DNA from: an uncultured Alistipes sp.
GTDB lineage: Bacteria > Bacteroidota > Bacteroidia > Bacteroidales > Rikenellaceae
Reading direction: 5' to 3'
DNA: 64,000 bases
Assembly (NCBI GenBank): GCA_937880705.1
Contig: CALGRZ010000068.1
Span: 62,001 to 126,000, forward strand
Below are positions 10,461 to 36,522 of this stretch, piece by piece. Each line of letters begins with the position of its first letter. Within the stretch, counting starts at the first letter, position 1. The notes under the pieces are model-generated. The model was not told the origin of the DNA. It was given only the letters and a program-made list of their open reading frames with translations, and ran no database searches. A program made the position numbers and the translations under genes.

Positions 10461-10975
10461 TCCGCAAGGCACAACACAGCGATATCGACACCGTGATGAC
10501 CATCGTGGCAAGTGCCCAACGTGCACTGGCCGAGTTGGGTATTGATCAGTGGCAGGATGGCTACCCCTCGAGGGCAGCTATCGAGGCAGATGTTAATGCC
10601 GATGTGGGATATGTGGCTGTAGATGCGCATAACCGCCCCATCGGCTATGCCGCCATAGTGCTTACCGGCGAGGAGGCCTACAAACAGATTGCCGACGAGA
10701 GGTGGAACACGCCAAACGACTATGTCGTTGTGCATCGTCTGTGTGTCGATGGCACACAACGTCGCAGAGGCATTGCACTGGAGTTGATGCAATATGCGGC
10801 TGATACGGCTCGCAGAGCCAACCTCACAGCCTTTCGCATAGACACCCACAGGGGTAATGTGCGCATGCTCGGCATGATGCAACGCCTCGGCTTCAACTTC
10901 ACGGGTATCATCCGATATGAGAGTGGCGAGCGCATGGCCTACGACCTTGATTTGAATTTAAGTAACACTCTATAA
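10457..10975 (+). CDS. GNAT family N-acetyltransferase
   Basis: A 172-residue acetyltransferase with the GNAT fold. The acetyl-CoA binding motif A is VHRLCVDGTQRRRGIALEL (near 95-113), with the RRRGIA pyrophosphate loop, and the C-terminal strand NVRMLGMMQRLGFNFTG is typical of motif B. The start overlaps the permease stop (ATGA), so it is translated from the same operon. The acceptor substrate cannot be told; family members acetylate small amines, peptides or antibiotics. It lies 11 bases ahead of the ABC-F gene. Confidence 0.87.
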   Translation: MIRKAQHSDIDTVMTIVASAQRALAELGIDQWQDGYPSRAAIEADVNADVGYVAVDAHNRPIGYAAIVLTGEEAYKQIADERWNTPNDYVVVHRLCVDGTQRRRGIALELMQYAADTARRANLTAFRIDTHRGNVRMLGMMQRLGFNFTGIIRYESGERMAYDLDLNLSNTL

Positions 10976-10986
10976 TTTGCTCTGCA

Positions 10987-12852: not shown

Positions 12853-13923
12853 CTACCCTATCGTGATATACTCTATGGGCTGCACAGGTTCGCTGTCGAG
12901 CAGATGAGCCTGGTAGGCGACCCTCTCAAAATCAATCGCCCCGAGGTCTATGCAACGTATCGAGTTGTTGGCCTGTGTCTTGTAGTAGACCTTCAGCGAC
13001 TTAAGGTCTATGGCCGACGTCCACTGCGTAGCACTACACAGAGCGGTATTTTGGGGATTTTCCACAGCCATAGGCACATCAAAGTTATTGAGTATATGGA
13101 AACATTGCAGAACGGTGGAGTATCCATCGGCCTGCTGGTGCGCCGTATTACGGAAGAATGCCGCGCGTACAAAGCGTGAGGGCGAGGTGAAGTCACCTGG
13201 CAGACCATGCATGGCCGAGCCACCGCCAAGAGGCTTCAGCGTAACATCGCCCAGCTGATAGCTATCGGCACTGCCAGGGCGTAGGCTCACATAGTTATTC
13301 AGGTTTGTAACATGCCACTCGAAGCCCGGGGCATTGGTCAACACTCCCACCCTATTCTCATAGAAGCGAGGCTTGCCATCCACAATCTCCATCACCACCT
13401 GACGTCCCGACTGCTCACCAATACGCCAATGCAGCACGGCACTATCTACCAAGGCGACGATACGCACGCCATCGATTGATGCTATGAGCTCATCGATCGA
13501 AGCAAACTGCGTCAACATCCACTGCACAACCTGCATATCGGCAAGCGTGATATCGCTCCGTGTGGCATCGAATGGCTCATAGCCTCCGTAGCCCGGAAAA
13601 AAGAACAGACCCGCAGACAGACCCGCTTCGTTGATACCCTCGGCGATAAACTCCTTAACCTCGACCGATAGCCCCACGACACCATACTTGGCACTAAATT
13701 GCAGTCCATCATCTCCCGAAGGGGTGTACGACCGCAACCTCTCGCCACGCGGAATTACCACATACTCACTCTTCAGCACTGCGCCATAGGCCCACTCGAT
13801 AGTTCTAGCTTGGACATAGCTACCATCCTTGGCCGTGAGCGATATGCCTGTGCAGGCCAGCGACATCGTAGAGCTGCCTATCAGCGCAGCACCACACAAA
13901 ATACTCTTCATAAACACATTCAT
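12853..13923 (-). CDS. exported linear amide C-N hydrolase (choloylglycine hydrolase/penicillin acylase family)
   Basis: N-terminal nucleophile hydrolase of 356 residues. A signal peptide is followed by ACTGIS, so processing can expose Cys24 as the catalytic N-terminal nucleophile. Arg40, Asn98 (GINEAGLSAG), Asn197 (LTNAPGFEW) and Arg250 (SPSRFVRA) match the catalytic set of bile salt hydrolases. The usual Asp19 residues after the cysteine is replaced by Glu43 (RTIEW), a change that occurs in parts of this family. Substrates of the family include conjugated bile acids, penicillin V and N-acyl homoserine lactones; which applies is open. The second Met (MKSILCG) is an alternative start. It is convergent with the uup gene. 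Confidence 0.87.
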   Translation of the reverse strand: MNVFMKSILCGAALIGSSTMSLACTGISLTAKDGSYVQARTIEWAYGAVLKSEYVVIPRGERLRSYTPSGDDGLQFSAKYGVVGLSVEVKEFIAEGINEAGLSAGLFFFPGYGGYEPFDATRSDITLADMQVVQWMLTQFASIDELIASIDGVRIVALVDSAVLHWRIGEQSGRQVVMEIVDGKPRFYENRVGVLTNAPGFEWHVTNLNNYVSLRPGSADSYQLGDVTLKPLGGGSAMHGLPGDFTSPSRFVRAAFFRNTAHQQADGYSTVLQCFHILNNFDVPMAVENPQNTALCSATQWTSAIDLKSLKVYYKTQANNSIRCIDLGAIDFERVAYQAHLLDSEPVQPIEYITIG

Positions 13924-13966
13924 AGTTTAATAGATTTTAGTTTAGCCGCTCATGTGCACAAACCGT

Positions 13967-14005
13967 ACAAAAAGGGGATGACTAAAAAGTAAATTAGCCA
14001 TCCCC
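13967..14005 (-). terminator. Terminator after the PCMD lipoprotein gene
   Basis: GGGGATGACTAA (13974-13985) pairs with TTAGCCATCCCC (13994-14005) with one mismatch; on the minus strand TTTTT follows. It lies 24 bases past the stop. Confidence 0.85.
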
Positions 14006-14029
14006 GTTTGAGGTTGAATAAAAATACTG

Positions 14030-15775
14030 TTAATAGACCCACTCAAAGTTCTCAACCAGGAGTACCGTATTGGTGCTTCCGGTGAGATAATCACCACGTT
14101 TAGATGCTGCGCACGATATCACAAGCGTATAATCTCCCGACGGCTTTGTCACGGTATCATACCAGCATGCGGGGATCACAAGGTCTACCCAACCATCGGT
14201 ACTTTGGGTAATATCCGCTACGCCATAGCCTATCACCTTACCCTCCGAGGGGTCGGCATCGAGTGGCGACCAGAATGTCGAGGCATCAATAGATGTTCCC
14301 GACTGTATGGTGTGGCGAGCGTTCCAGCTCACCAAGGCAAACATAATGCGCGACTCATCCATCGTTGTACCAACGGTGATCGACGACTCATCAGGGTCAT
14401 TATTGCCCACATGGGTGATCGTAGAGATGGTTGCATTAAGGCGTAGTTTAAGCGCAGAGGGGCGAGCATTATATGTGTAAGGCTGACCAAAACGAGCATA
14501 ACCTTTACCCATATTAGAAAAATTACCGAACTCCATAATACCTGCAAATAGGTTACCAGCAGCAAAAACACTAAATGCAGAATCACCCTTCAGCTGTGCA
14601 CAATATGTACCCTCCTCGCCAACGTCACTAACGGCCGAGCACAATGAGCTTGTCGATTTGTTGTTACCACTACTCCAGAAGGCATTACTATCATCAGCAT
14701 TGGGAAGATTTATAGTTCCTCCAACTAGAGCACCCGATACCGTATGGCTCGACCAATTATCCATTGATGCATCCTGCAACACATCGGCCGTACCACCGGC
14801 ATCAAACACTGTTGTTGCAACGCTTACACCATCTACCTCAAGCGATACTTCATACGAATTACCAAGATATACACCCGTGCCATCCGTGTATGCATAGAAG
14901 TCACGACCGCCCGCATTGGTTGCAGCAGTGTACTGCGGAGCGATGGTTATAACACCACCGTTAAGCATCGCTGCATGCCACAACTCCTCGCCCACCTTGC
15001 GATACTTTGCCACGGCACCATCAAGCTCCGCATTCTCCACCTCGACACTTACGGTCGCAGTGTTAGCCCAAAGATCAGCATCGTTATTATAGGTAAGCGT
15101 GTAGCTCGCAGGCTTTGACAGAGTAATAACACCGAGGTTGTAGACCCTGTTATTCACAAAATCGAGTGTCGCCGACTTGACCTCCTCGCCACCAACAAGA
15201 GCCGTCAGACGTACATTCTCTGATGCACATATCGCAACAAAGATATTTTCACCCGCCTCAATATTCACCTCTGTGAGTGTAGTGACACCATCACCAAAGA
15301 TCGCCTTGTCAGCCGTGAGTGTGACATCGCTCTCGGCGGTAAGTTTCAAAAAGGCGTTCTCGGCTACAAGGTTGATTGACGACTCCTCGCTGAAGTTATC
15401 AGTCACGCCCGTAAGCATCATGCCTGCGGCACCGGCATAACTATCTATCACACTATTATACACAACATTAACGCTCTTACCGATAAGCGAGCGAACACCA
15501 TCGGCCTCGGCCACGAAGAGGCCCTTATCTGTCGTTGAGTTCTTAAATTCGAACTCCCTCTCGCCATCCGACACCACGAGGGTCTCATCACCAACCCATA
15601 CAGTCCTCCACTCTTTGTCGGTAAGTTCAAGCGCAGTGCGTGTTGTTACCACATCGGCTCGAAACGAGAGGGCGTTATCTTTCACACCGACAGCATCAAT
15701 CTCAAATTCGGTATTACACCCTACCATAGCCAACATCATCACGGCCACGGCAAAAAATCCTAATAATCTCTTCAT
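14030..15775 (-). CDS. PCMD-domain surface lipoprotein
   Basis: A 581-residue lipoprotein when started at MKRLLGFF; an upstream Met six codons earlier overlaps the preceding small gene. The lipobox is LAMVGC. The N-terminal half (to about 230) has a fimbrillin-like pattern of beta strands (FRADVVTTRTALELTD), the middle resembles an Ig-like insert, and the C-terminal 250 residues look like the PCMD domain, a predicted carbohydrate-binding beta-jellyroll in Bacteroidota (DNWSSHTVSGALVGGTINLP, then FWSSGNN, and LVLLVENFEWVY-like end VLLVENFEWVY). Role is inferred as a surface glycan or host-ligand binding protein. It appears to be cotranscribed with the 52-residue peptide gene upstream. Confidence 0.75.
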   Translation of the reverse strand: MKRLLGFFAVAVMMLAMVGCNTEFEIDAVGVKDNALSFRADVVTTRTALELTDKEWRTVWVGDETLVVSDGEREFEFKNSTTDKGLFVAEADGVRSLIGKSVNVVYNSVIDSYAGAAGMMLTGVTDNFSEESSINLVAENAFLKLTAESDVTLTADKAIFGDGVTTLTEVNIEAGENIFVAICASENVRLTALVGGEEVKSATLDFVNNRVYNLGVITLSKPASYTLTYNNDADLWANTATVSVEVENAELDGAVAKYRKVGEELWHAAMLNGGVITIAPQYTAATNAGGRDFYAYTDGTGVYLGNSYEVSLEVDGVSVATTVFDAGGTADVLQDASMDNWSSHTVSGALVGGTINLPNADDSNAFWSSGNNKSTSSLCSAVSDVGEEGTYCAQLKGDSAFSVFAAGNLFAGIMEFGNFSNMGKGYARFGQPYTYNARPSALKLRLNATISTITHVGNNDPDESSITVGTTMDESRIMFALVSWNARHTIQSGTSIDASTFWSPLDADPSEGKVIGYGVADITQSTDGWVDLVIPACWYDTVTKPSGDYTLVISCAASKRGDYLTGSTNTVLLVENFEWVY

Positions 15776-20467: not shown

Positions 20468-21964
20468 ATGAGAGTGCAGAAAGTAACAGGCACACTTGTT
20501 ATAGTGATGCTCATAGCCTTAACAACAGCGTGCGACATTGTTCACACGCGCAACAAGCGCAGCATAGATATCGACAAAGATATATGTTGCACGTTTGATG
20601 CGCAGAGCATCGATGTTCCATACACCACGACCATCTTCGAGAGCGACCAGAGCACCAGCCCCGCAGCCCTCGTTGCCACGACCGATGCCGAGTGGATATC
20701 GGAGATCAGCACACCCACGCGCGGCACACTGCGCATTGTCGTTGACGAGAATGTTGGTGACATGCGCACGGCAACCATCAACCTCTCGGGTGAGGAGACC
20801 CTCTCGACATCTATAAGCATCAGCCAGATCGCTGCACCCAAAGAGCGTGTCGAGCACACACTGCTATTCTACTTCTTCGGCACCAGTCTCAACCGCTTCT
20901 TCGACAACAACATCAGAGATGCCTCCAAGGCTGTGGGCGAGGGCATCTTGGGCGAGGAGGGTCGCATACTCTTTGCAAGACAGACCTCGCAATCCGAGGG
21001 CTACATCGGTGAGCTATGCTACGACCCCATACACCACAGTGCCATAGAGCGATACATCGAGCCGTTTACGCTGGACTATACCGAGGTAAGCAACACCGCC
21101 ATAGCATCTATCATGGCGCAGATGACCACCGAGGCCCCTGCCGAGCGTTACGGCATGATCATAGCCGGCCATGGTCAGGGTTGGGTAACACGAGAGGCTA
21201 TCAATGGCGACGACAGTGGCGAGCTGTTGCACTACAGACCCACCAACTGGACACCTGTGCCGGGTGCCGACATCACACGAGCCCTCGGCGAGCGCAACAT
21301 ACAGAAGGATATCACCGACCTTGCCGAGATCGTGACCCTCTCGGACATAGAGCTGGAGTACATACTCTTCGACATGTGTTTCATGGCGAGCATCGAGGCC
21401 CTCTACGACCTGCGCGACGTGGCCGACTACATCATCGCCTCACCGTGCGAGATCATGGGTAATGGCTTCCCGTATCACCGCACGCTACCCCACCTCTTTG
21501 TCGATTATGGCAAGTCGAGCGACCTGGTGGCGGCGGCCGAGAGCTACTACACCTTCTACCGCGACGAGTACCAGGGCAACAAGTGCGGCTCGGTAGTGGT
21601 TGTCGACTGCTCGGAGCTCGAGCCGCTTGCCGAGGCTACACGCACACTGATGTCGACCGCCTCGACCGAGTACGACATCGATGCCTTGCAGTACTATGAG
21701 GGTCAGCAGGTACACACCTTCTACGACTTCGGGCAGTACTGCCGCGTGGTAGCTACCGACCAGGCAGCCCTTGCTGCGTTTGACACACAAATGGAGTGTG
21801 CCGTGGTAGGAAAATTCACCCTTCCCACCTTCTACTCGGCATACGGATATGGCAACCATAATATAGATCTGGAGGCGTACAGTGGCCTTACCACCTCGGC
21901 ACCCAGCAAGGCCTATCCCGAGGAGTGGAGGACCACTTCGTGGTATAAGCGAGTTATGGAGTAG
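20468..21964 (+). CDS. BACON-domain clostripain-family (C11) protease lipoprotein
   Basis: A 498-residue lipoprotein with a signal peptide and Cys22 (LTTAC). Residues about 60-120 look like a BACON domain (TTDAEWISEISTPTRG, then RTATINLSGEETLSTSI). The rest is a C11 cysteine peptidase with His235 in IAGHGQGW and Cys304 in FDMCFMASIEALYDL, followed by IIASPCEIMGNGFPY. C11 enzymes such as clostripain and PmC11 cleave after basic residues and often self-activate. As a surface-anchored protease it could act on host or bacterial proteins; specificity is not visible. It sits 7 bases after the DUF4919 gene. Its stop is close to the ffh promoter. Confidence 0.85.
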   Translation: MRVQKVTGTLVIVMLIALTTACDIVHTRNKRSIDIDKDICCTFDAQSIDVPYTTTIFESDQSTSPAALVATTDAEWISEISTPTRGTLRIVVDENVGDMRTATINLSGEETLSTSISISQIAAPKERVEHTLLFYFFGTSLNRFFDNNIRDASKAVGEGILGEEGRILFARQTSQSEGYIGELCYDPIHHSAIERYIEPFTLDYTEVSNTAIASIMAQMTTEAPAERYGMIIAGHGQGWVTREAINGDDSGELLHYRPTNWTPVPGADITRALGERNIQKDITDLAEIVTLSDIELEYILFDMCFMASIEALYDLRDVADYIIASPCEIMGNGFPYHRTLPHLFVDYGKSSDLVAAAESYYTFYRDEYQGNKCGSVVVVDCSELEPLAEATRTLMSTASTEYDIDALQYYEGQQVHTFYDFGQYCRVVATDQAALAAFDTQMECAVVGKFTLPTFYSAYGYGNHNIDLEAYSGLTTSAPSKAYPEEWRTTSWYKRVME

Positions 21965-24283: not shown

Positions 24284-25477
24284 CTACTCTATCATCTTCG
24301 AGCGCATCCACCCTGCCAACGCCTCCGCCGCGTGTCCATCCTCCACAAAGCCCACGCGCTCCTCAAAGAAGCTGTCAAGACGCTGCTCGTAGAGCTCATT
24401 GTCGAACTCCGCGACGATGCTCTCCAACTCCTGCATATTACGAGCCAACGGGAATGGCATCTCCGCGAAATCGAAGTAGTAGCCACGATCATACTGATCA
24501 ACATCGGTCGCATAGAGCAGGCACGGGCGATGCAGCATGGCAAAGTCGAACATTGAGCTTGAATAGTCGGTTATAAGCATATCGCTGATACACAGCAACT
24601 CCTGCATATCGTGATAGAGCGTCATATCTATTACGGCACTATGGGTACATAGCTCCGATGTGTCGACCTTATTGATAAGGTTGGGGTGTAGGCGCAGCAA
24701 TACTGCAACACCACAGCCGAGGCTGCGCTCAAGCAGTGGCACTATACGCTGCCAGTCGATACGGTAGGGCTCGATGCTCTGGTTGCGACGGAATGTCGGG
24801 GCATAGAGCACAATGCGACTGCCAGCATCAATGCCATACTGCCCGCATATACGCTCACGCAGCTGCGCGCGGTGGGCCGCATCAAAGAAGATGTCGTTGC
24901 GCGGAATACCTCGCTCGAGTATCTCGCCCGAGTACCAGAAGCTGTTGCGCAGCAACTCTGTCTGCATCCTGCAACCCGAGATCATGAGGTCGGCGACCTT
25001 CGAGTCGCGTTTTGCCTTCTGTATGTAGCTGAAGCCAAGCATCTGCTCGGCATCGCGCTCTATTCTCTTCAGGGCAACACCTCCGTGCCAGAGCATCAGA
25101 TACTTCTGCTCGGGACGTTTATGCCAATAGATATGCCACGGGTCGGTACGCGCATTGGTAACCAAAAACTCTGCGCTGTTGATCACCTTAAGATACTCCC
25201 ATGTGCGAAACCTCACACAGCGTATTCGGCTATCAACCGAGGATGTATCCACACCTCTACGGAAGATCCATATAATCTCCATATCGGGGTAGTTTTCAAG
25301 CAGATATTCACTCAAATAGCGCGGGTTACAGCTATACTGCTTGAAGTTGTAGGCCCAGCATACCACTCGGCCTCGTTGCACCGACGTGAAACACCGCACA
25401 ACAGCCGAGGCGGCGTTTCCGAATGACTTGACGGCACGGTTCAGCAACCATGCTATGGCGGGGCCAATACTCTTCAT
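24284..25477 (-). CDS. CDP-glycerol glycerophosphotransferase-like (TagF/TagB family)
   Basis: Predicted to transfer a polyol phosphate from a CDP carrier onto a growing polymer, as in teichoic acid synthesis. The product is about 397 residues from MKSIGPAIAW. Recognisable segments are the MLWHGGVALKRI acceptor motif, RGIPRNDIFF, VLYAPTFR, LRLHPNL and ITDYSSSMFDFAMLHRP. An upstream Met seven codons earlier is also possible, since the -7 box lies only 10 bases before it, but that leader would be very short. It diverges from the LicD operon. Its substrate may be the CDP-polyol made by the fused cytidylyltransferase next door; that link is inference. Confidence 0.8.
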   Translation of the reverse strand: MKSIGPAIAWLLNRAVKSFGNAASAVVRCFTSVQRGRVVCWAYNFKQYSCNPRYLSEYLLENYPDMEIIWIFRRGVDTSSVDSRIRCVRFRTWEYLKVINSAEFLVTNARTDPWHIYWHKRPEQKYLMLWHGGVALKRIERDAEQMLGFSYIQKAKRDSKVADLMISGCRMQTELLRNSFWYSGEILERGIPRNDIFFDAAHRAQLRERICGQYGIDAGSRIVLYAPTFRRNQSIEPYRIDWQRIVPLLERSLGCGVAVLLRLHPNLINKVDTSELCTHSAVIDMTLYHDMQELLCISDMLITDYSSSMFDFAMLHRPCLLYATDVDQYDRGYYFDFAEMPFPLARNMQELESIVAEFDNELYEQRLDSFFEERVGFVEDGHAAEALAGWMRSKMIE

Positions 25478-25507
25478 ACCATTAGTAGTTTTCACCATTA
25501 TACTACA

Positions 25508-25515
25508 CAAAGATA
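25508..25515 (-). promoter_or_regulatory. -7 box for the phosphotransferase gene
   Basis: TATCTTTG on the minus strand, very close to the start codon. It faces away from the LicD promoter 33 bases further along. Confidence 0.55.
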
Positions 25516-25547
25516 CAAAATCTTTCCATAGAATGGAAAAATTTTTA

Positions 25548-25555
25548 TAAATTTG
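25548..25555 (+). promoter_or_regulatory. -7 box for the LicD operon
   Basis: TAAATTTG, 23 bases before the LicD ATG, in the compact divergent gap with the phosphotransferase gene. Confidence 0.5.
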
Positions 25556-25578
25556 CATAACTAACCAACACGTCTATT

Positions 25579-26421
25579 ATGTATAGCGAGATGACGTTTG
25601 ATGCAAAGAGCCTGAAGCAACGCTACAACCCCGAAGGATCGGCACTGCGCCGCGACCAGCTGGCACTCCTCGAGATGCTCAAGTCGCTGGCCGAGATCTG
25701 CCGTGAGCACAATATACGTTGGTGGTTAAGCTCCGGCACGCTGCTTGGTGCTGCCCGCCACAAGGGCTTTATACCGTGGGACGACGATATGGACATTGTG
25801 ATGTTGCGCAGCGACTACCGTCGACTGGAGCGCATACTGCGCAAGAGCAACAACAAGGAGTTTGTGCTGCACTCGATGCGCAGTGATGTAGAGTACACCA
25901 ACTGCTTTGGCAAATTCCGCAAGCGCGAGGGAGAGGTTAAGGGTAAGAGCCGTCGTTACGACTACTACAAGTGGCGCGGCATAGGCCTCGACATATTTAC
26001 CATCGAGCGCACCAACTTTTTCGCAGCCAAGTGCGCAAGTACGATATATGGCAACCTGCAACACCTAACCTCGTACATCACCATAGGATGGTTGCGCCGT
26101 TGGCTCATACGCCTTATCGAGGCTCTGTGTCTGGGCATAATATTCCCTCTGCTGCGCCTTATAGGCCTCATCAACCCGCGTGGCGAGTATCACTACTCGC
26201 TGGGTACCGGGTGGGCACGCCACACCTTCTTTATGGAGGATACCCTGCCTCTGACCACCGCAACATTTGAGGGTGAACAGATGCCCGTACCAAAGGATAT
26301 GGATGCCTATCTTACAAGGGTATATGGTGACTGGCGCAAGCTGCCATCGGAAGAGGCTATTAGGGGATGTATTCACTGCCAAGAGTATCTTGACGAGATA
26401 TTTCCAAACGAGAAACAATGA
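25579..26421 (+). CDS. LicD/fukutin-like phosphotransferase
   Basis: LicD proteins move phosphocholine or polyol phosphates from CDP donors onto glycans; the eukaryotic relatives fukutin and FKRP transfer ribitol phosphate. The 280-residue product has the nucleotidyltransferase-like core LSSGTLLGAARHKGFIPWDD with the acidic metal site WDDDMDI (67-73), and a hydrophobic patch near 175-200 that may anchor it to the membrane. The gene overlaps the fused cytidylyltransferase by four bases (ATGA). Which CDP donor it uses is open; the adjacent cytidylyltransferase is the natural candidate. Confidence 0.88.
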   Translation: MYSEMTFDAKSLKQRYNPEGSALRRDQLALLEMLKSLAEICREHNIRWWLSSGTLLGAARHKGFIPWDDDMDIVMLRSDYRRLERILRKSNNKEFVLHSMRSDVEYTNCFGKFRKREGEVKGKSRRYDYYKWRGIGLDIFTIERTNFFAAKCASTIYGNLQHLTSYITIGWLRRWLIRLIEALCLGIIFPLLRLIGLINPRGEYHYSLGTGWARHTFFMEDTLPLTTATFEGEQMPVPKDMDAYLTRVYGDWRKLPSEEAIRGCIHCQEYLDEIFPNEKQ

Positions 26422-27770
26422 AAAAAGTTATTACATACGGAACATACGATCTGCTACACCAGGGTCACATCAACCTCCTGAAGCGTGCCAAGGCCTTGGG
26501 CGACTGGCTTATTGTGGGTATAACCAACGATAGCTTCGATCGTGAACGAGGCAAGCTCAACGTAAGGAACAATGTCTTGGAGCGTGTCGAGGCGGTAAAG
26601 GCTACGGGCCTCGCCGACCAGATCATCATCGAGGACTACGTTGGCCAAAAGATAGATGACATCCAGCGTTACGATGTCGACACGTTTGCCATCGGCTCGG
26701 ACTGGGAGGGTAAGTTTGACTACCTGCGAGAGTTCTGCGAAGTGGTCTACCTGCCCCGCACCGAGGGTGTGTCGTCGACAATGCTGCGCGCCGAGAGCGA
26801 GGTGGTGGTAAACATCGGTGTTGTGGGCTGTGGCCGTATTGCACATCGCTTTGTTCCCGAGGCGGCACGAGTTGATGCCGCCCACATCACTGCCCTCTTC
26901 GACATTGACCACAACGCAGCCCAAGAGCTTGCACACAAGGAGGGTGTGGGCACCGTGTGCGAGAGTTTCGAGGAGTTGGTCGAGCTGTCGGATGCAGTAT
27001 ACATCGCCACGCCTCACCTATGCCACTATGAGCAGTCGCGCTATGCACTGGAGCATGGTCGCCACGTTCTATGCGAGACACCGCTGGTGCTCAACGCCGC
27101 ACAGGCCGAGGAGCTCTACACGCTGGCCGAGAGCCGGGGTGTAGTGCTTTTGGAGGCCAACAAGACCGCCTACTGCCCGGCATTCAACCACCTCATCACT
27201 TTGGTTAAGAGCGGACTTATTGGCGACGTCGTGGGCATCGACGCCTCGGAGTCGAAACTCTGGGATAGGAGCGATCTGAAGCGAGAGCTCGACCCCAAGC
27301 AGGCGGGTGGATCGCTCTACGAGATGGGCTCATACCCGCTGCTGCCCATCGTCAAACTATTGGGCACGCAGCAGCGTGATGTCATGCTGTACAGCCGCCT
27401 AAATAGCGATGGCGTGGATATATACACTCGCGGCATGATGCTGTGTGAACGTGGCGTAGGCTCCTTCCAGCTCGGCCTTGGTGTAAAGACCGAGGGTAAT
27501 CTGGTTATCTCGGGCACTCGCGGCTACGCCTATGTGCCATCGCCGTGGTGGAAAACCGACTACTTCGAACTACGCTACGAAGATCAGAACCAGAATAAGA
27601 AGTACTTCTATAAGTGGGACGAGCCGGGCTTAAGATACGAAATTCAGGAGTTTGTATCGTGCATAGTCAATGGCCGCAGCCGCTCCGCGCGCCTCACACC
27701 CAAAGAGAGCATCGCCATGGCGCGTGTGATGGAGCAGTTCACCAACCGCAAAAACTTCTTTGAGCTATGA
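26418..27770 (+). CDS. fused TagD-like cytidylyltransferase and Gfo/Idh/MocA oxidoreductase
   Basis: A 450-residue two-domain protein. Residues 1-126 match glycerol-3-phosphate cytidylyltransferase (TagD): GTYDLLHQGH with the HxGH site at 14-17, GITNDSF, and RTEGVSST at 114-121. Residues 130-450 are a Gfo/Idh/MocA NAD(P)-dependent dehydrogenase with a Rossmann fold GVVGCGRIA at 134-142 and the EKP-like position CETPLVLN. The predicted role is to make a CDP-activated polyol, with the second domain perhaps producing or modifying the polyol precursor. It overlaps LicD upstream and the SDR downstream, both by ATGA. TagD and reductase domains are more often separate. The CDP-glycerol assignment is by family only. 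Confidence 0.88.
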   Translation: MKKVITYGTYDLLHQGHINLLKRAKALGDWLIVGITNDSFDRERGKLNVRNNVLERVEAVKATGLADQIIIEDYVGQKIDDIQRYDVDTFAIGSDWEGKFDYLREFCEVVYLPRTEGVSSTMLRAESEVVVNIGVVGCGRIAHRFVPEAARVDAAHITALFDIDHNAAQELAHKEGVGTVCESFEELVELSDAVYIATPHLCHYEQSRYALEHGRHVLCETPLVLNAAQAEELYTLAESRGVVLLEANKTAYCPAFNHLITLVKSGLIGDVVGIDASESKLWDRSDLKRELDPKQAGGSLYEMGSYPLLPIVKLLGTQQRDVMLYSRLNSDGVDIYTRGMMLCERGVGSFQLGLGVKTEGNLVISGTRGYAYVPSPWWKTDYFELRYEDQNQNKKYFYKWDEPGLRYEIQEFVSCIVNGRSRSARLTPKESIAMARVMEQFTNRKNFFEL

Positions 27771-28489
27771 AAAATGCAATAGTAACGGGGGCTACCAAGG
27801 GTATCGGCTTGGCCATCGCCCGCATGCTCCTAAACAGAGGCTACCACGTCACCATCACCTACTCGCACGACGAGGCTTCGGCCGAAGCGTGCCGCGAGGA
27901 GCTGCTCAAAATTGCACCCCACTTCGAGATTGTCCGCGCCGACCAATCCGACAAGGAGGCAATGCGCGAGTTCAGCCTTAAGATGATTAGCGAGCGCGAA
28001 ACCATAGATTGCATCGTCTGCAATACGGGCACCACGCTGCGCTGCTCACTCGACGAGATCACCGACGAGGCGTGGGAGCGCACCATGCAAGTCAACGTCA
28101 ACAGCAGCCTATATCTGGTACGCGACCTCTTTCAGAAGATACCCGCCAACAGCCGCATAATCTTTATCGGCTCGCTGATGGGCATACACCCTCACGGCAC
28201 GTCGCTGGCCTATGGTGTCAGCAAGGCTGCCGTACACGCCCTGGCACTAAACCTCGTTAAGTGTTTCGAGGCTACGGGCACAACGGTAAATGCTATCGCC
28301 CCGGGCTTTGTCGAGACAGAGTGGCAGGCCTCAAAGCCACAGCACATACGCGATAATATCTACGCCAAGAGTGCCATTAAGCGTTTTGCCACTACCGATG
28401 AGGTTGCCGAGGCCGTGCGCTTCTGTATCGACAACGCCTTTGTCAACGGCTCCATCATAGAGGTCAGCGGAGGTTATAGTTTTAAATAG
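27767..28489 (+). CDS. SDR family oxidoreductase
   Basis: A 240-residue short-chain dehydrogenase. The NAD(P)-binding motif is TGATKGIG (7-14), followed by NTGT, the catalytic serine in IGSLMG, and YGVSK with Tyr148 and Lys152. It has the general FabG-like length. It overlaps the fused gene by ATGA and is followed 8 bases later by a glycosyltransferase, so its substrate is likely a sugar or polyol intermediate of the same pathway rather than a fatty acyl chain. That is a context inference; the sequence alone does not settle it. Confidence 0.88.
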   Translation: MKNAIVTGATKGIGLAIARMLLNRGYHVTITYSHDEASAEACREELLKIAPHFEIVRADQSDKEAMREFSLKMISERETIDCIVCNTGTTLRCSLDEITDEAWERTMQVNVNSSLYLVRDLFQKIPANSRIIFIGSLMGIHPHGTSLAYGVSKAAVHALALNLVKCFEATGTTVNAIAPGFVETEWQASKPQHIRDNIYAKSAIKRFATTDEVAEAVRFCIDNAFVNGSIIEVSGGYSFK

Positions 28490-28497
28490 TTAGAAGT

Positions 28498-29436
28498 ATG
28501 TGTCCAAGGCCATTGCTTGTTTCAGTCATCGCACCCATCTATGGTGTTGAGCGTTACATCGAGAAGTTTGCCGACTCGGTGCTGTCGCAGTCATATCCTC
28601 ACATAGAGTTTATCTTTGTCAACGACGGCACAAAGGATCGCTCGATAGAGATACTCAACGACCTTATCGAACGTAAATACAGCCACCTGAAGTCGTGCAT
28701 CAATATTGTCAATAAGCCCAACGGCGGTCTTCCCGCTGCGCGTCGCACAGGTCTGGAGCACGCCACGGGCGACTACATCTACCATGTTGACTCCGACGAC
28801 TGGCTATCACCCGATGCCATCGAAAAGATTGTAGATACGATATATCGCACAGGCGCAGACATCGTATACTTCAACTTCGTTAAGGAGTACCCCAACCGCC
28901 CAAAGAGTAAGCGCGAAAGGGTGTACACATCCGAGAACAAGGTGCAATACATACGCGACATGTACAACCATCGTGCATATGCCGCCGTCTGGAATAAGTG
29001 TGTGAACAGCATAATATACACCGACAACGACCTCTACACACCACCCTACGGCTATGCCGAAGATTGCTGCGTAACCACACAGCTCGTGGGTTATGCCAAG
29101 CGCATAGCCTACCTTGACGAGGAGCTGTATCACTACCGCAAGGGCAACCCGGGTGCATTGACGGGTCAACAGCGCAAAAAGCGCAAGAGGGAGTATGCGT
29201 TGAACTTCCTCGGTCTGTATGAGAGGTATATGAACGTGGAGGCGAAGGAGAACCCCGTAGCATGCATCTTTGACGACATAGCAATTCAGGCGGGATGGTA
29301 CTCGATGATCTATGGCTTCGGCCTATTCAAAGAGTACAAGTGGCTGAAGGGGGCTATACGCAAGGCAAAGATACACACCGACTCGGATCTGTTCATCCTC
29401 GCACAGCTACTCGTTAAACTCCGAGCATGGCTATAA
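28498..29436 (+). CDS. family 2 glycosyltransferase
   Basis: A 312-residue GT-A fold enzyme. The N-terminus has VSVIAPIYGVERYIEKFADS, FIFVNDGTKDRS, NKPNGGLPAARRTGLEHATG and HVDSDDW, which holds the metal-binding DxD-type site. The C-terminal 100 residues are basic and Tyr-rich without predicted membrane helices. Start is the ATG 8 bases after the SDR stop. It is last in the LicD operon and ends in a perfect hairpin. It probably adds a sugar to the surface polymer made by this locus; donor and acceptor are not visible. Confidence 0.9.
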   Translation: MCPRPLLVSVIAPIYGVERYIEKFADSVLSQSYPHIEFIFVNDGTKDRSIEILNDLIERKYSHLKSCINIVNKPNGGLPAARRTGLEHATGDYIYHVDSDDWLSPDAIEKIVDTIYRTGADIVYFNFVKEYPNRPKSKRERVYTSENKVQYIRDMYNHRAYAAVWNKCVNSIIYTDNDLYTPPYGYAEDCCVTTQLVGYAKRIAYLDEELYHYRKGNPGALTGQQRKKRKREYALNFLGLYERYMNVEAKENPVACIFDDIAIQAGWYSMIYGFGLFKEYKWLKGAIRKAKIHTDSDLFILAQLLVKLRAWL

Positions 29437-29437
29437 T

Positions 29438-29480
29438 GATATTGGGCTGTCCAACAAAGATGTTGTGACAGCCCAATATC
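29438..29480. terminator. Terminator hairpin between convergent glycosyltransferase and Stealth genes (repeat copy B)
   Basis: GATATTGGGCTGTC (29438-29451) pairs perfectly with GACAGCCCAATATC (29467-29480), plus an inner CAAC/GTTG helix. The core of 31 bases matches the hairpin at 3161-3199 at 27 positions, and the flanking differences keep the stem paired. Confidence 0.85.
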
Positions 29481-29500
29481 TTAAAGTTGTATAACATGTT

Positions 29501-30379
29501 CTACTTTTCGTATTTCGACCTATTGGGTAGCTTGCGCTCGAAGGCATCAATTAAGGCCTGACGTAACTCCGTGTAACGCTCCTCACTGAGCTGCACATCA
29601 TTGACACAGGTCAGCTTATGTGTCGGGCTCTCGATAAATTGGCGGAGCTTCTTGGCCGACACCACACCCACCGAGAAGTGTTTCTTGGAGAGTCGCTCGT
29701 TGATGATCTTACCCTTAAGATACATATAGTCGAGGTAGAGATACTGGTTGAGGTTCTTTGCCGAGCGCGTGGTGGTCATCGACTGCAATATTCGATGCTT
29801 CATCGCAGTGTACACCGCCCGAACCTCGCTCTTAAGCATCGGCGTGCAGACATGCTGCGGTCGCAGGAAGAGGCGCGACGGCTTAATGCAGAGAGCCTCA
29901 CGAGCCACACTGTCCGAGTTACGACATATCTGCTTGAACATATCGAAAGCGAAGAGGTGGTGGCTCATACCCAGAACACCGCGACCGTCACGGAAGAAGT
30001 CGGTTGGCTGGCACGGCTTAAGCGGGAAGATATCGTCGTTGAAGTAGAGATACTCCTCATCCAAATCTGCGATATTATGAAGGTGCATCTCTATGGGGTT
30101 GCAGTTAAACGTGGGCAGGAGGTCGGCAGGGATAATATCCTTGTGCAGAACAACATCCACCTCATCACAATTAAGCCACTCGGGGACCTGACTCGGCTGT
30201 GACACCACAAGGTGCACCTTGCGAATGAATGGCATATTCCGAGCAATACCGCGGAAGAGGTACTTCAGCGTACCCCAGTCCCTAAATCGCTTCTCCACGA
30301 TAGGCGTATTGGTATGCTTGGCATACTCCTGCTGCCACTCCGGGTCAAGACCATTGACGTATGTGATAACTATATCCAT
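29501..30379 (-). CDS. Stealth-family sugar phosphotransferase
   Basis: Stealth proteins transfer sugar-1-phosphates from UDP donors, building phosphodiester-linked capsule polymers. The 292-residue product shows the conserved regions in order: DIVITYVNGLDPEW at the start; RFRDWGTLKYLFRGI near 31-45 with HLVVSQPSQVPEWL; and YLYFNDDIFPLKPC near 112. It is convergent with the LicD operon and separated only by a terminator. Its presence supports a phosphodiester-type surface polymer from this region. Its own promoter lies 16 bases upstream of the ATG. Confidence 0.88.
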   Translation of the reverse strand: MDIVITYVNGLDPEWQQEYAKHTNTPIVEKRFRDWGTLKYLFRGIARNMPFIRKVHLVVSQPSQVPEWLNCDEVDVVLHKDIIPADLLPTFNCNPIEMHLHNIADLDEEYLYFNDDIFPLKPCQPTDFFRDGRGVLGMSHHLFAFDMFKQICRNSDSVAREALCIKPSRLFLRPQHVCTPMLKSEVRAVYTAMKHRILQSMTTTRSAKNLNQYLYLDYMYLKGKIINERLSKKHFSVGVVSAKKLRQFIESPTHKLTCVNDVQLSEERYTELRQALIDAFERKLPNRSKYEK

Positions 30380-30426: not shown

Positions 30427-31425
30427 CTATTCGCGATTTATTTTACCATATTTCTTAGCCTGCTTTTCGGGTGTATGTCGCCAACGGCGATGTGTCCACA
30501 CCCACAGCTCGGGACGCTCCGACACCATACGCTCCAAAGCACGCACATATCTCTCGGTGATCTGGTTGGGCTCGACTGCCTCCACGCCATCATATATCTG
30601 GTCGAAACGCAACGAGTATCTGCCCGGTGCACGACGTGTGATATATGTGAAGTAGACCGGCAGATGGAACTTAAGAGCGATCTTCTCGGCTCCGTCGTGG
30701 AAGAGCGTGGGTTGGTTTAGGAACTCAAACCAGTGGCTATCGGCCCTCATATTGGGGCTCTGATCCGAGATTAGACCCATGGCTATGCCGTTACACTTAT
30801 CTCTTGTCGAGACATAGTGACGTATAGTGTTTTGCATTGGCACCTGATGCACGTTTGATGCGAAGTGACGCATACGGTGGTAGAAGCAGTCGAATATGGG
30901 ACTGCGAAGCGGATGGTAGACACCCGATAAAGTGGCCTCCGGTGCAAACCAACTCCACAGCAAGAAGTACTCCCAGCAACCATAGTGTGTCGCCATGGCA
31001 ATCCAATCTCGCCCGTGCATCTTCTCGCGGTGCTCCACACCATTCTGCCACTCGATAACATCACCGAAGCGTTTGGGCGTAGCACCTGCAAGGTTAAGCG
31101 TATTGATGACCATCTCGGCCAAGAACGAGTAGTTTCGACGTATGATACGGCGCAACTCACCCTTCGACCTCTCGGGGAACGACCTGCGCAGGTTGTCGAG
31201 CATCACCCGACGACGGTAACGCGACAGGATAAAGAGCCCTGCTATAAGCGGTTGCAGCATGTAATATTTGAAGATACGCGGAGAGAGCGACAACGCTCGA
31301 CTAAAGCCCCACAACACCTCAAGGGCTACCCTCTGCCACCACTTCAACTCCGCCTCCAAGGCCTCCTTGGCGGCATTATACCTATCGTCCATCTTTTCTA
31401 CCTTTTTAATGGCCATTGCGACCAT
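30427..31425 (-). CDS. LpxL/HtrB-like lysophospholipid acyltransferase (copy 1)
   Basis: Late acyltransferase of the lipid A type, 332 residues. The H-x4-E active site is ATHYGCWEYF near residue 140. Other conserved pieces are SRYRRRVMLDNL, GISDQSP-like GLISDQSP, and RPELWVWTHRRWR, the C-terminal hallmark of LpxL. A hydrophobic N-terminal stretch anchors it to the inner membrane. The true start may be the first Met or one of those at codons 4, 5 or 12; the -7 box lies 15 bases before the first. It is a close relative of the next gene upstream, so the pair arose by tandem duplication. Confidence 0.87.
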   Translation of the reverse strand: MVAMAIKKVEKMDDRYNAAKEALEAELKWWQRVALEVLWGFSRALSLSPRIFKYYMLQPLIAGLFILSRYRRRVMLDNLRRSFPERSKGELRRIIRRNYSFLAEMVINTLNLAGATPKRFGDVIEWQNGVEHREKMHGRDWIAMATHYGCWEYFLLWSWFAPEATLSGVYHPLRSPIFDCFYHRMRHFASNVHQVPMQNTIRHYVSTRDKCNGIAMGLISDQSPNMRADSHWFEFLNQPTLFHDGAEKIALKFHLPVYFTYITRRAPGRYSLRFDQIYDGVEAVEPNQITERYVRALERMVSERPELWVWTHRRWRHTPEKQAKKYGKINRE

Positions 31426-31487: not shown

Positions 31488-32432
31488 TCACTTTATAGTG
31501 TGCTCAAGGGTGGTGCTACCGAAACGCGAAAGCTGGCTCTGTGGTGTATGTCGCCAACGATTGTGCGACCACATCCACAACTCGGGACGACGACGTATCA
31601 TCTGCTCCAACGCCCTCGCATAACGCTCGGTAATTTGGTGTGGCTCAACAGCCTCATGGCCATCATAGAGCTCCACAAAGCGCAACGAATAACGCCCCGC
31701 CTTGATACGCTCGATATATGTAAAGAATATAGGTATGTTAAACTTCAGAGCGAGCCTCTCGGCACCATCATGAAACGCAGTTGGTCGACCGAAAAACTCA
31801 TACCAGTGGCTGTCGATGCGCAGATTGGGGCTCTGGTCGGCAACCAAGCCGATGACAACACTACGACCCGTAGCGCGATTGAGCATATAGCGGCGCACAG
31901 CACTATTCATAGGCACCTGCTCGATTGAAGGGGTAAAGCGTCGTAGACGCCGGTAGTAACACTCAAAGATATCGCTGCGCAGAGGGTGGTATACACTCAT
32001 AAACACGGCATCGGGCTGCTCGAAGCTCCACAGCGGAAAGTACTCCCAGCAGCCATAGTGGGCTGCTATGGCTATCCAGTCACCACCGGCGGTGCGCTGC
32101 AATAGCCGATCGCCATTCTCCCAACGCATAATCTTACGCAGGCGACGCTCACCGGCTCCGGCAAGCGCAATGGTATCGACCATAACCTCGGCAAGTATCC
32201 AGTAGTTACGGCGCATGATGGCACGCACCTCGCCTCGGCTCTTCTCGGGAAAGGCCTCCGTAAGATTACCCAATATCACTCGTCGACGATAGCGCGTCGC
32301 CACAAGCAGCAGGGCTACGAAGGGCTGTATAATATAGTAGTGTACAAAACGCGGCATTACCCCGATAACAAGGCTCGTGCCCCATGCCAATTCGAGCGCA
32401 ATGCGCTTGTACCATTTCAGTTGCTTCTCCAT
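31488..32432 (-). CDS. LpxL/HtrB-like lysophospholipid acyltransferase (copy 2)
   Basis: A 314-residue paralogue of the preceding entry, about half identical by eye, with the same IAAHYGCWEYF active site, ATRYRRRVILGNL, GLVADQSPN and RPELWMWSHNRWRHTP. The preferred start is MEKQLKWYKR; the frame is open about 34 codons further but a -7 box lies inside that stretch. Two or more such enzymes are expected for the acylation of lipid A, with each copy using a different acyl chain or position. Chain specificity is not readable from the sequence. Confidence 0.88.
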   Translation of the reverse strand: MEKQLKWYKRIALELAWGTSLVIGVMPRFVHYYIIQPFVALLLVATRYRRRVILGNLTEAFPEKSRGEVRAIMRRNYWILAEVMVDTIALAGAGERRLRKIMRWENGDRLLQRTAGGDWIAIAAHYGCWEYFPLWSFEQPDAVFMSVYHPLRSDIFECYYRRLRRFTPSIEQVPMNSAVRRYMLNRATGRSVVIGLVADQSPNLRIDSHWYEFFGRPTAFHDGAERLALKFNIPIFFTYIERIKAGRYSLRFVELYDGHEAVEPHQITERYARALEQMIRRRPELWMWSHNRWRHTPQSQLSRFGSTTLEHTIK

Positions 32433-32453
32433 TACGATATTTTTCGGTCGTGA

Positions 32454-32461
32454 CAAAGGTA
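32454..32461 (-). promoter_or_regulatory. -7 box of acyltransferase copy 2
   Basis: TACCTTTG on the minus strand, 21 bases before the preferred ATG, which supports that start. Confidence 0.5.
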
Positions 32462-32544
32462 TGCTTTTAGTCGTTAGACACCATTCACACACCTGCATAT
32501 TCGGCCGTTTCGACCAAAAATCGTACCAAAGCAACCAGCAGGTC

Positions 32545-34950: not shown

Positions 34951-36522
34951 TTACTCTCTAAAAGAGTACTTACCGCCGGTGATCTTCTCCAGCGAGAAGC
35001 TGTCGTAGACGATGGTATAGCCGCCACTCTTATCAGAGCAATAAGTGGCCTCCTCCCACAGGAAGGCGAGGCGACCATCATGCTGCCACGCCATAGTCGA
35101 GTATGCCGAGCCAAGCGTGGTAACCTGACAGACACCCTCCCAGCCACGCGATATCACCGAGGCTGCGCTATAGTCCGATGCCGACTCCAGGGCCTTATAG
35201 TATATACCCACATTCGTGCGACCCGGGCCCAGAGGCACCGACTGCAACAGCAGATCAACCTCCGCACCATCAGCCTTACGCAGGGCCTTGACGAGCATCA
35301 CCTCGCCATTTGTCGAGTTGTCCACAGCCGACACGCCATCATTGCTGCGACTTGAGAAGGATGCCGAGCCCCATCTACCCTCTGCCGTTGCTACATTCGC
35401 AAAGCTATATATATTAAAGTATCGGCCACCCATCCAGCGCGAGCTCAACAGCACCGAGCCATCGGGCAACTCCTCCACCTTCGGCTCGTCGCAATTACCA
35501 CCAAGAGGAGCCTTGGCAACACCTCCGAGCACCTCCCAGCTATCGCCAAAGTTATCAGAGTAGAGGACAAAGTTCTTGGGGCTGTTATACTTGTCGCGCA
35601 CCAGCACGGCACAATAGAGGCGGTAGTAGTCATCGACCTTCACCTGACGGCTCTGCATAATGCGACCCGATGCCACAAACATAGCATTCACGGGGCCAAA
35701 CGAGCACTCATCGAACTTCGAGTAGATGCTCTCGGCAATGTCGGTGGGTGCACTCCACGACAGGCCACCATCCTCGCTATAGAAGCGCGCCATGTTCTGG
35801 TGACGATCGCGTGTTCCGGCCTGATACGAGACATTGCCTGCACAGCTCATCAGCAGCACTCGCTGACTCTCACAATCGGCCACGATGCAGGGATCGCCAT
35901 AGCCCACATTCATAAAGTCCTCTGAGGCCGAGCCCTTGCCCTCGATAATAACCTCGATAGGGCCCCACGTTACACCATTATCGGTACTGCGGCGCATGTG
36001 CAGATCGATGCGGCCAAAGTCGGCAACACCAATATCGTAGCGGCTGTGGCGATAGTCGGCAACGGCGACCAGAGAGCCATCCATCGTAACCGTCACGGCA
36101 GGTATGCGGTAGGGAATATCGGCCTCTTCGTGCATCGGGAAGAGCTCGAAGCGGCGTGTATACTCGTTCTGCACCACTCGAAGCTCCACATCCTTACACT
36201 TGGGATAACTCAACAGGATGGCAGCCTCGCGAGGCAGTCGTGCCTCATTCTTCGTAACTGCGACACGCACCTTCGCAGCATCAACATCGACGGTGAGCCA
36301 CTCGGCATTGCACTCCGCGCTCAACACTGCATCGGCAACGGGGTTAAGCACATTGTAGTTCAGCGCATGCTCGCCCTCATCGCCCTCCACGACAAGCTCC
36401 AGAGCCTCGAGGCTCACAATCGGAGAGATAGGTTCGGGCTCGGGAGCAGGCTCCTTACCGCAAGCAACAGCCATGATGGTGGCACTAAAGATCAGACTTA
36501 ACATAACAAGTATTCTTCTCAT
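34951..36522 (-). CDS. BACON-domain sialidase lipoprotein (GH33-like)
   Basis: Exo-alpha-sialidase-like protein of 523 residues, expected to release terminal sialic acid. A signal peptide ends at a probable lipobox cysteine (MAVACGKEP, Cys21). Residues about 40-122 form a BACON-type domain (EHALNYNVLNPVADAV, CNAEWLTVD). The catalytic six-blade propeller begins with YRIPA (the FRIP motif) and has Asp boxes STDNGVTWG, SEDGGLSWS and SDNFGDSWE. It probably lies on the outer surface and acts on host mucin or bacterial glycans. It is monocistronic with its own promoter and terminator. Other uses of the propeller fold cannot be ruled out without the catalytic Tyr/Glu alignment. Confidence 0.82.
   Translation of the reverse strand: MRRILVMLSLIFSATIMAVACGKEPAPEPEPISPIVSLEALELVVEGDEGEHALNYNVLNPVADAVLSAECNAEWLTVDVDAAKVRVAVTKNEARLPREAAILLSYPKCKDVELRVVQNEYTRRFELFPMHEEADIPYRIPAVTVTMDGSLVAVADYRHSRYDIGVADFGRIDLHMRRSTDNGVTWGPIEVIIEGKGSASEDFMNVGYGDPCIVADCESQRVLLMSCAGNVSYQAGTRDRHQNMARFYSEDGGLSWSAPTDIAESIYSKFDECSFGPVNAMFVASGRIMQSRQVKVDDYYRLYCAVLVRDKYNSPKNFVLYSDNFGDSWEVLGGVAKAPLGGNCDEPKVEELPDGSVLLSSRWMGGRYFNIYSFANVATAEGRWGSASFSSRSNDGVSAVDNSTNGEVMLVKALRKADGAEVDLLLQSVPLGPGRTNVGIYYKALESASDYSAASVISRGWEGVCQVTTLGSAYSTMAWQHDGRLAFLWEEATYCSDKSGGYTIVYDSFSLEKITGGKYSFRE

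Follow-up and report, generated by a model that had tools for sequence, protein, structure and literature searches.

The locus and its fused enzyme

The window analysed here is a stretch of 64,000 nucleotides from an uncultured Alistipes sp. (GenBank assembly GCA_937880705.1, contig CALGRZ010000068.1, positions 62,001 to 126,000). At positions 24284-30379 of the window six open reading frames (ORFs) surround a gene that joins a TagD-type cytidylyltransferase to a Gfo/Idh/MocA oxidoreductase. A preliminary description of the locus had listed the six genes and their families and had read them as a teichoic-acid-like polyol-phosphate pathway. The ORFs lie where it placed them, and all six stated families exceeded their Pfam cut-offs (Table 1); the Stealth_CR1 match of the convergent gene scored 22.6, under its own Pfam cut-off of 27.2. 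New in this analysis is the TagD-Gfo fusion as the centre of a module whose partner enzyme comes in three exchangeable kinds. No description of such a fusion or of a swappable partner was found in the literature, mainly open-access, among the matches listed (titles and abstract openings).

Table 1. Genes of the locus and its flank, with window coordinates
Feature	Position	Strand	Family match
TagF-like polyol-phosphate transferase, single-domain, divergent	24284..25558	-	PF04464 253.9 bits
LicD-family phosphotransferase, probable user of the CDP donor	25579..26421	+	PF04991 126.7 bits
Fused TagD-type cytidylyltransferase and Gfo/Idh/MocA oxidoreductase, module core	26418..27770	+	PF01467 57.7, PF01408 85.9 bits
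SDR-A partner, one of three interchangeable partners	27767..28489	+	PF00106 136.2 bits
GT2 glycosyltransferase, part of the clade-specific locus	28498..29436	+	PF00535 109 bits
Stealth-family (CR1/CR2) sugar-phosphate transferase, convergent, clade-specific locus	29501..30379	-	Stealth_CR2 PF11380 109.6 bits
LpxL-like lipid A acyltransferase, flanking; relative in 1/12 close loci	30427..31425	-	
Second LpxL-like lipid A acyltransferase, flanking; relative in 1/12 close loci	31488..32534	-	

The LicD gene overlaps the fusion by 4 bases and the fusion overlaps the gene of a short-chain dehydrogenase/reductase (SDR) by another 4, so that the three read as one coupled unit; the GT2 gene starts 8 bases after the SDR gene. 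Motifs that we take to be catalytic were found in LicD (DDDxD, residue 68), the TagF-like protein (HGG and TDYSS), the Stealth protein (FNDD) and the SDR (YxxxK). In LicD the motif accompanies a PF04991 score of 126.7 bits against a cut-off of 22.6. The first ATG of the TagF-like ORF is only 20 bp from the divergent LicD ATG. Of its eight strong relatives, the seven included in the gene-order table have 399-409 amino acids against 424 in the ORF; the true start is therefore probably some 15-25 codons inside the called ORF. A patatin gene flanks the locus together with the two LpxL-like acyltransferases, and these genes fit an organism with an outer membrane.

The fused protein consists of a TagD-type domain (residues 1-126, approximately) and a Gfo/Idh/MocA part (approximately 129-450). 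A pattern scan of public genomes returned at least 592 stretches, 586 of which were confirmed, and the best 80 were used; with the window this gave 81 fusions. In all of the best 80 loci the fusion occupies a single open frame, which rules out a gene-calling artefact. The Gfo part combines a Rossmann NAD domain with the C-terminal domain of the family. A fold search with residues 128-450 listed GenD2, KanD2, GnnA and WlbA among its matches.

In the TagD domain His14, His17, Arg114, Thr115, Ser119 and Ser120 are invariant in the 81 fusions, so that the HxGH and RTxGxSS/ST motifs, presumably those of a nucleotidyltransferase, are intact. The domain scored 117.7 bits with TIGR01518, the glycerol-3-phosphate equivalog, whose cut-off is 165.4. 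Trp74 is absent from 81/81 fusions, none of which has a tryptophan anywhere between residues 66 and 80; it is kept by the standalone TagD proteins L020, L083, L084 and, if TGA is read as Trp, L081. The low score and the loss of Trp74 indicate that this is not an ordinary glycerol-3-phosphate enzyme, and leave the plain CDP-glycerol donor of the earlier reading unsupported. That a CDP donor is made on site appears likely.

Partner enzymes and residue 280

Three gene families recur beside the fusion: two SDR families, SDR-A and SDR-B, and a class V aminotransferase (AT-V). They were recognised in a first neighbour table of 75 loci, from which L014, L024, L030, L054 and L068 were missing, apparently displaced by longer overlapping ORFs; the later partner count covered all 80. 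Within 1.2 kb of the 81 fusions the partner was SDR-A in 22 cases, SDR-B in 23 and AT-V in 23 (that of L058 was set manually, its ORF being truncated), and 13 fusions had none. A partner scoring at least 250 bits lay within 5 kb in 71/80 loci, and 41 of 66 measured partners overlapped the fusion by 1-4 bases. All three families are enzymes of carbonyl chemistry. The best solved relative of AT-V is 3f0h (504 bits), serine-pyruvate and 2-aminoethylphosphonate (AEP) transaminases being more distant. A recurrent precursor-making kinase or aldolase was also considered; none turned up among the 109 non-core neighbours scanned (of 194), in the first 25 of 68 families listed.

Two kinds of partner within 6 kb were found in two loci, L045 (SDR-B and SDR-A in tandem) and L047 (AT-V, with SDR-B 5.5 kb off). 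The L045 tandem (10001-12900), behind one fusion, may be an intermediate of a partner swap or a locus with two products. At L014:11422-13349 the partner is replaced by ORFs that resemble, by eye, a sugar kinase and a nucleotidyltransferase.

Linkage was then assessed genome-wide by searching one member of each family against 40 whole genomes (of the 80 loci), with thresholds fixed before each family's sole search (AT-V 1e-60, SDR-B 1e-30, SDR-A 1e-50). The searches gave 9 AT-V, 13 SDR-B and 12 SDR-A matches over threshold. All 34 lay beside a fusion, 32 within 91 bp and the other two at 849 and 1109 bp; no match over threshold was found elsewhere in the 40 genomes, the AT-V search being the less sensitive. 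Genes expected from the loci were recovered in 13/13 cases for SDR-B and 12/12 for SDR-A, and in 9/13 for AT-V (those of G029, G031, G034 and G037 were missed), so the result says less for the aminotransferase.

The partners do not follow the phylogeny of the fusion strictly. Mapped onto a tree of all 81 fusions, the partner labels required 15 changes for SDR-A, 14 for SDR-B and 8 for AT-V; shuffled labels gave means of 19.4, 20.2 and 20.3, and values as low as those observed in 6, 0 and 0 of 500 shuffles. The fusion of the window and that of L002 are 81% identical, and their partners, SDR-A and SDR-B respectively, share 26% identity over the matched part. The sister pairs L045/L049 and L012/L015, with fusions 83% identical in each pair, also differ in partner. 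The AT-V rows fall into three separated groups on the tree: L076 alone, from Lachnospiraceae, a clade of 19 rows, and a clade of 8 rows that includes the Fibrobacter loci. These label changes, together with fusions 81-83% identical next to unlike partners, indicate that partners have been exchanged repeatedly.

Identity of the TagD domain between the SDR-A and SDR-B classes (0.86) equals that within them (0.86 and 0.87), and the Gfo part behaves likewise (0.60 between; 0.60 and 0.62 within). Because TagD identity is no lower between the two SDR classes than inside them, the fused enzyme most likely has the same job with either. A first site scan found no sites over the cut-offs between SDR-A and SDR-B, and only two, both conservative, between the SDR and aminotransferase classes. 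A second scan looked for columns at least 90% conserved in the 45 SDR rows that have been lost from 75% or more of the rows in each of the two main AT-V clades. Out of 200 SDR-conserved columns a single one qualified, Lys280 of the Gfo domain. The residue is lysine in 44/45 SDR-partnered fusions (arginine in L033), glutamine in 8/8 rows of the smaller AT-V clade, and threonine in 17, serine in 1 and a gap in 1 row of the larger. With this result the idea that the fused enzyme is blind to its partner was dropped for the aminotransferase class. The link between residue 280 and partner type rests on two clades and is a lead; it suggests that the Gfo step and the partner step act on the same molecule. 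It can be read as an altered intermediate passed from the Gfo domain to the aminotransferase, or as a Gfo substrate that is already aminated.

Phosphotransferases and spread of the fusion

In the 40 genomes 43 of 87 LicD genes lay within 10 kb of a fusion (27/40 genomes), where 0.73 would be expected if they were evenly spread. Initiating sugar transferases (PF02397) of these genomes served as a fairer control: LicD was present within 10 kb of 9/84 of them and of 28/41 fusions (Fisher p 9e-11, which is no true probability since the genomes are related). The PF02397 control speaks against a mere polysaccharide-locus effect.

The other genes of the locus are more narrowly distributed. In the fetched loci of the 12 closest relatives we found orthologues of TagF in 8, LicD in 8, GT2 in 9 and Stealth in 8, with gene order and orientation reshuffled; the remaining 68 loci gave counts of 0, 1, 0 and 1. 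The conserved linkage on which the preliminary description depended therefore stands within the clade of the window, where it is false that the genes occur separately, and fails outside it, where separate occurrence is true of the TagF, GT2 and Stealth orthologues. Because orthologues of the four genes are nearly absent beyond the clade, the six-gene locus is a clade-specific assembly round a wider two-gene module.

The best 80 loci come from Bacteroidales families, Fibrobacter, Lachnospiraceae and Anoxynatronum, and the nearest fusions, about 80% identical, from Alistipes and other Bacteroidales metagenome-assembled genomes (MAGs). A sample of 393 genomes from the order included 7 with a full-length fusion (the centre genome, G001, and G021 among them), and a sample of 296 from the phylum included 1, again G001; a second match there, in G222, covered the Gfo part only. 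The fusion is patchy and has probably been passed around between genomes. Phage carriage was considered and rejected, since the four viral contigs matched only with the TagD part. Two IMG/VR contigs carry a standalone TagD (L081:8120-8509 and L082:1244-1633). Both tryptophans of the L081 protein are encoded by TGA and the gene reads through under table 4; the viral genome behind it is probably recoded, with TGA as Trp.

Several loci have unusual gene contents. A Lachnospiraceae genome (G038, the genome of L076) has two fusions, at C9:17188-18516 and C13:258814-260139, each with LicD within 10 kb. At L069:8231-9985 the Stealth CR1/CR2 and LicD domains lie in one protein of 584 amino acids, a fusion of two phosphotransferases. 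In a Fibrobacter MAG the L020 locus (approximately 10001-15400) combines the fusion and a class V aminotransferase with three LicD genes and a standalone TagD that retains the usual tryptophan; it apparently provides for two different CDP donors. Elsewhere the window encodes a choloylglycine hydrolase family protein (12853-13923; CBAH, 199 bits) that may be a bile-salt hydrolase or an N-acyl amidase. Near the locus lies a clostripain-family (C11) protein (20468-21964), and the protein at 34951-36522 gave weak BNR (sialidase-like) and BACON matches.

Proposed pathway and known systems

The simplest reading is that the fusion supplies a carbonyl compound and the partner sets its fate, because the place next to it can be taken by either of two SDR families or by an unrelated aminotransferase; the compound is most likely CDP-linked, since the fusion contains both a cytidylyltransferase and an oxidoreductase. 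We tentatively propose that the two-gene module makes a CDP-activated, tailored polyol or amino-polyol phosphate, in the order activation, Gfo oxidation, partner step and surface transfer. The TagD domain would couple CTP to a small phosphorylated alcohol, giving a CDP-linked compound in which the Gfo domain would next oxidise one hydroxyl to a carbonyl. SDR-A or SDR-B would reduce that carbonyl with differing stereo- or regio-outcome, and in other genomes the class V aminotransferase would convert it to an amine. LicD, with the TagF-like protein in this clade, would transfer the finished phospho-polyol to a surface glycan, which GT2 and the Stealth protein would build or extend. The substrate, the order of the steps, the direction of the Gfo reaction and the acceptor are what we infer here. 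A narrower version, possible but rather doubtful, places the branch point at a CDP-linked open-chain polyol: a CDP-keto or CDP-aldehydo intermediate would be met by a swapped partner, with residue 280 matched to it, and the charge or stereochemistry of the surface phospho-polyol would be altered.

A number of observations weigh against this scheme. In nine of the 80 loci no partner reaching 250 bits lies within 5 kb; among these nine, L058 has the truncated class V aminotransferase, and in L035 the fusion is immediately followed by a HisC-like one that scores under the family cut-off. A match to LicD, TagF or Stealth within 5 kb accompanied 17/23 SDR-B, 17/23 AT-V, 8/21 SDR-A and 8/13 unpartnered fusions, so that the link to transferases is weakest in the window's own class. 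SDR- and aminotransferase-partnered fusions are more distant from each other (identity 0.80 for TagD and 0.53 for Gfo) than are the two SDR classes, and L076 retains Lys280 beside an aminotransferase. In the Gfo domain the lysine of the EKP motif, which we take to be the catalytic residue of Gfo enzymes, is missing from 76/81 fusions (T 60, I 11, V 2, L 2, S 1; K in 5), the window having ETP, and Tyr306 is missing from 30/81.

The neutral residue 280 of the two main AT-V clades would also be expected of a Gfo domain whose substrate is already aminated, the partner having acted first; this weakens the favoured order and strengthens the reverse one. There the partner, the Gfo domain or both would make the polyol or amino-polyol phosphate from a phosphorylated carbonyl sugar, and TagD activation would come last. 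The fused CDP-ribitol synthase Bcs1 works in that order, with reduction before cytidylyl transfer (PMC10299916), and a central sugar phosphate could be the input, since no kinase or aldolase recurs in the families listed for the 109 neighbours scanned. Yet one TagD pocket would then have to take differing partner products, and TagD is equally conserved across the SDR-A and SDR-B classes. The second Rossmann strand ends at residue 162, which is aspartate in 49/81 and asparagine in 31/81 fusions; we read this as leaning to NAD rather than NADPH, and it also argues against activation as the last step. Given Lys280, that order is nearly as likely as the favoured one. The lost EKP lysine and Tyr306 would be explained if the Gfo domain were a redox-dead scaffold or regulatory unit, with TagD alone making a CDP-polyol and the partner acting on something else, but we consider this very improbable: Gly137 and Gly139 of the NAD site, Lys249-Thr250-Ala251, Glu302, Lys357, Trp377 and Trp378 are invariant in 81/81, carbonyl enzymes have repeatedly been recruited beside the domain, and the tracking of the partner by Lys280 favours an active enzyme. 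That the invariant Lys249 replaces the EKP lysine is a guess.

The nature of the product and its acceptor can be weighed in the same way. The teichoic-acid-like phosphodiester polymer of CDP-glycerol or another polyol, proposed in the preliminary description, agrees with the presence of TagF-like, LicD and Stealth transferases next to a TagD domain, and such polymers are already known in other Gram-negative bacteria (PMC5974469), which is therefore not where the novelty lies. We regard it as unlikely. The TagD features described above do not suit it, and in L020 a Trp-bearing TagD beside the fusion suggests that the two make different donors. The TagF-like protein matched only PF04464 (residues 57-413 of 424) and has no second transferase domain, and no flippase or polymerase was seen among the 25 families listed of the 52 in the window, three ABC ATPases among them being left aside. 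On these two grounds we lean to decoration of an existing lipopolysaccharide or other glycan. The earlier pathway reading is partly supported, right in kind with its product unproven. Even less probable is a donor that decorates the head group of a phospholipid or sphingolipid. The sole NCBIfam match of the window's LicD is to a mycoplasma diacylglycerol cholinephosphotransferase (73.9 against a cut-off of 225 bits), and the LpxL-like and patatin genes flank the locus; however, LpxL-like genes occur in only 2/12 close loci, GT2 and Stealth accompany the locus within the clade, and glycosyltransferases are the commonest families among the 109 scanned neighbours (top family 8/109).

If the proposed pathway is correct, it adds a nucleotide-donor pathway to gut commensals, in which related strains could alter their surface decoration by replacement of one gene. 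It predicts that one fused enzyme with three partners gives three different CDP products, residue 280 matching the fusion to its partner. In the narrower version the module would serve gut Bacteroidota as a donor cassette comparable to antigen variation, and CDP-amino-polyols would constitute a new donor class.

Among known systems Bcs1 and TarIJ reportedly join an IspD-type cytidylyltransferase to an SDR-type or medium-chain (MDR-type) reductase. The Pfam matches of the fusion include CTP_transf_like (PF01467) and no IspD family; the window system is built from a TagD-type domain, a Gfo/Idh/MocA domain and a second, exchangeable carbonyl enzyme. The likeness lies in a cytidylyltransferase joined to an oxidoreductase that provides a CDP-polyol for a surface phosphodiester (for Bcs1, PMC10299916). 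The closest solved structures to the N-terminal domain are the TagD/TarD structures 2b7l and 1coz, with which it shares HxGH and RTxGxSS; unlike them it scores below the equivalog level, has no Trp74 and is fused. CpgD was considered as a further TagD relative and set aside, its authors reporting no homology.

The GenD2/GenS2 and WlbA-type pairs are said to act on sugar rings and to have no cytidylyltransferase domain. They resemble the AT-V module in that oxidation by a Gfo-fold enzyme is followed by transamination of the ketone: GenD2 and GenS2 were reconstituted in vitro together with GenN (PMC4340712), and a WlbA-type 3-dehydrogenase is paired with a 3-aminotransferase (PMC10622841). In Tde-PntC/AEPT (6pd1), which the AT-V partner matches at 72 bits, a cytidylyltransferase and an AEP aminotransferase likewise serve surface tailoring, but its nucleotidyltransferase is LicC-like, the two are fused directly and the substrate is a phosphonate (PMC6697681). 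The Gram-negative TagF-like capsule polymerases share the TagF-like domain and carry a second GT-A or GT-B domain (PMC5974469), whereas the protein of the window has a single domain. A parallel to the favoured order of steps is offered by HS5.18/HS5.17 (CDP-6-D-glucitol) and Mnp1/Mnp2 (CDP-mannitol), in which activation is followed by redox chemistry on the CDP-linked chain, as in Campylobacter jejuni HS:5, where an open-chain CDP-sugar undergoes redox after activation (PMC10918830). These systems use a separate sugar nucleotidyltransferase and SDR, and the available part of that report describes no Gfo domain and no aminotransferase alternative; in the window the cytidylyltransferase is fused to a Gfo domain, and the partner can be exchanged.

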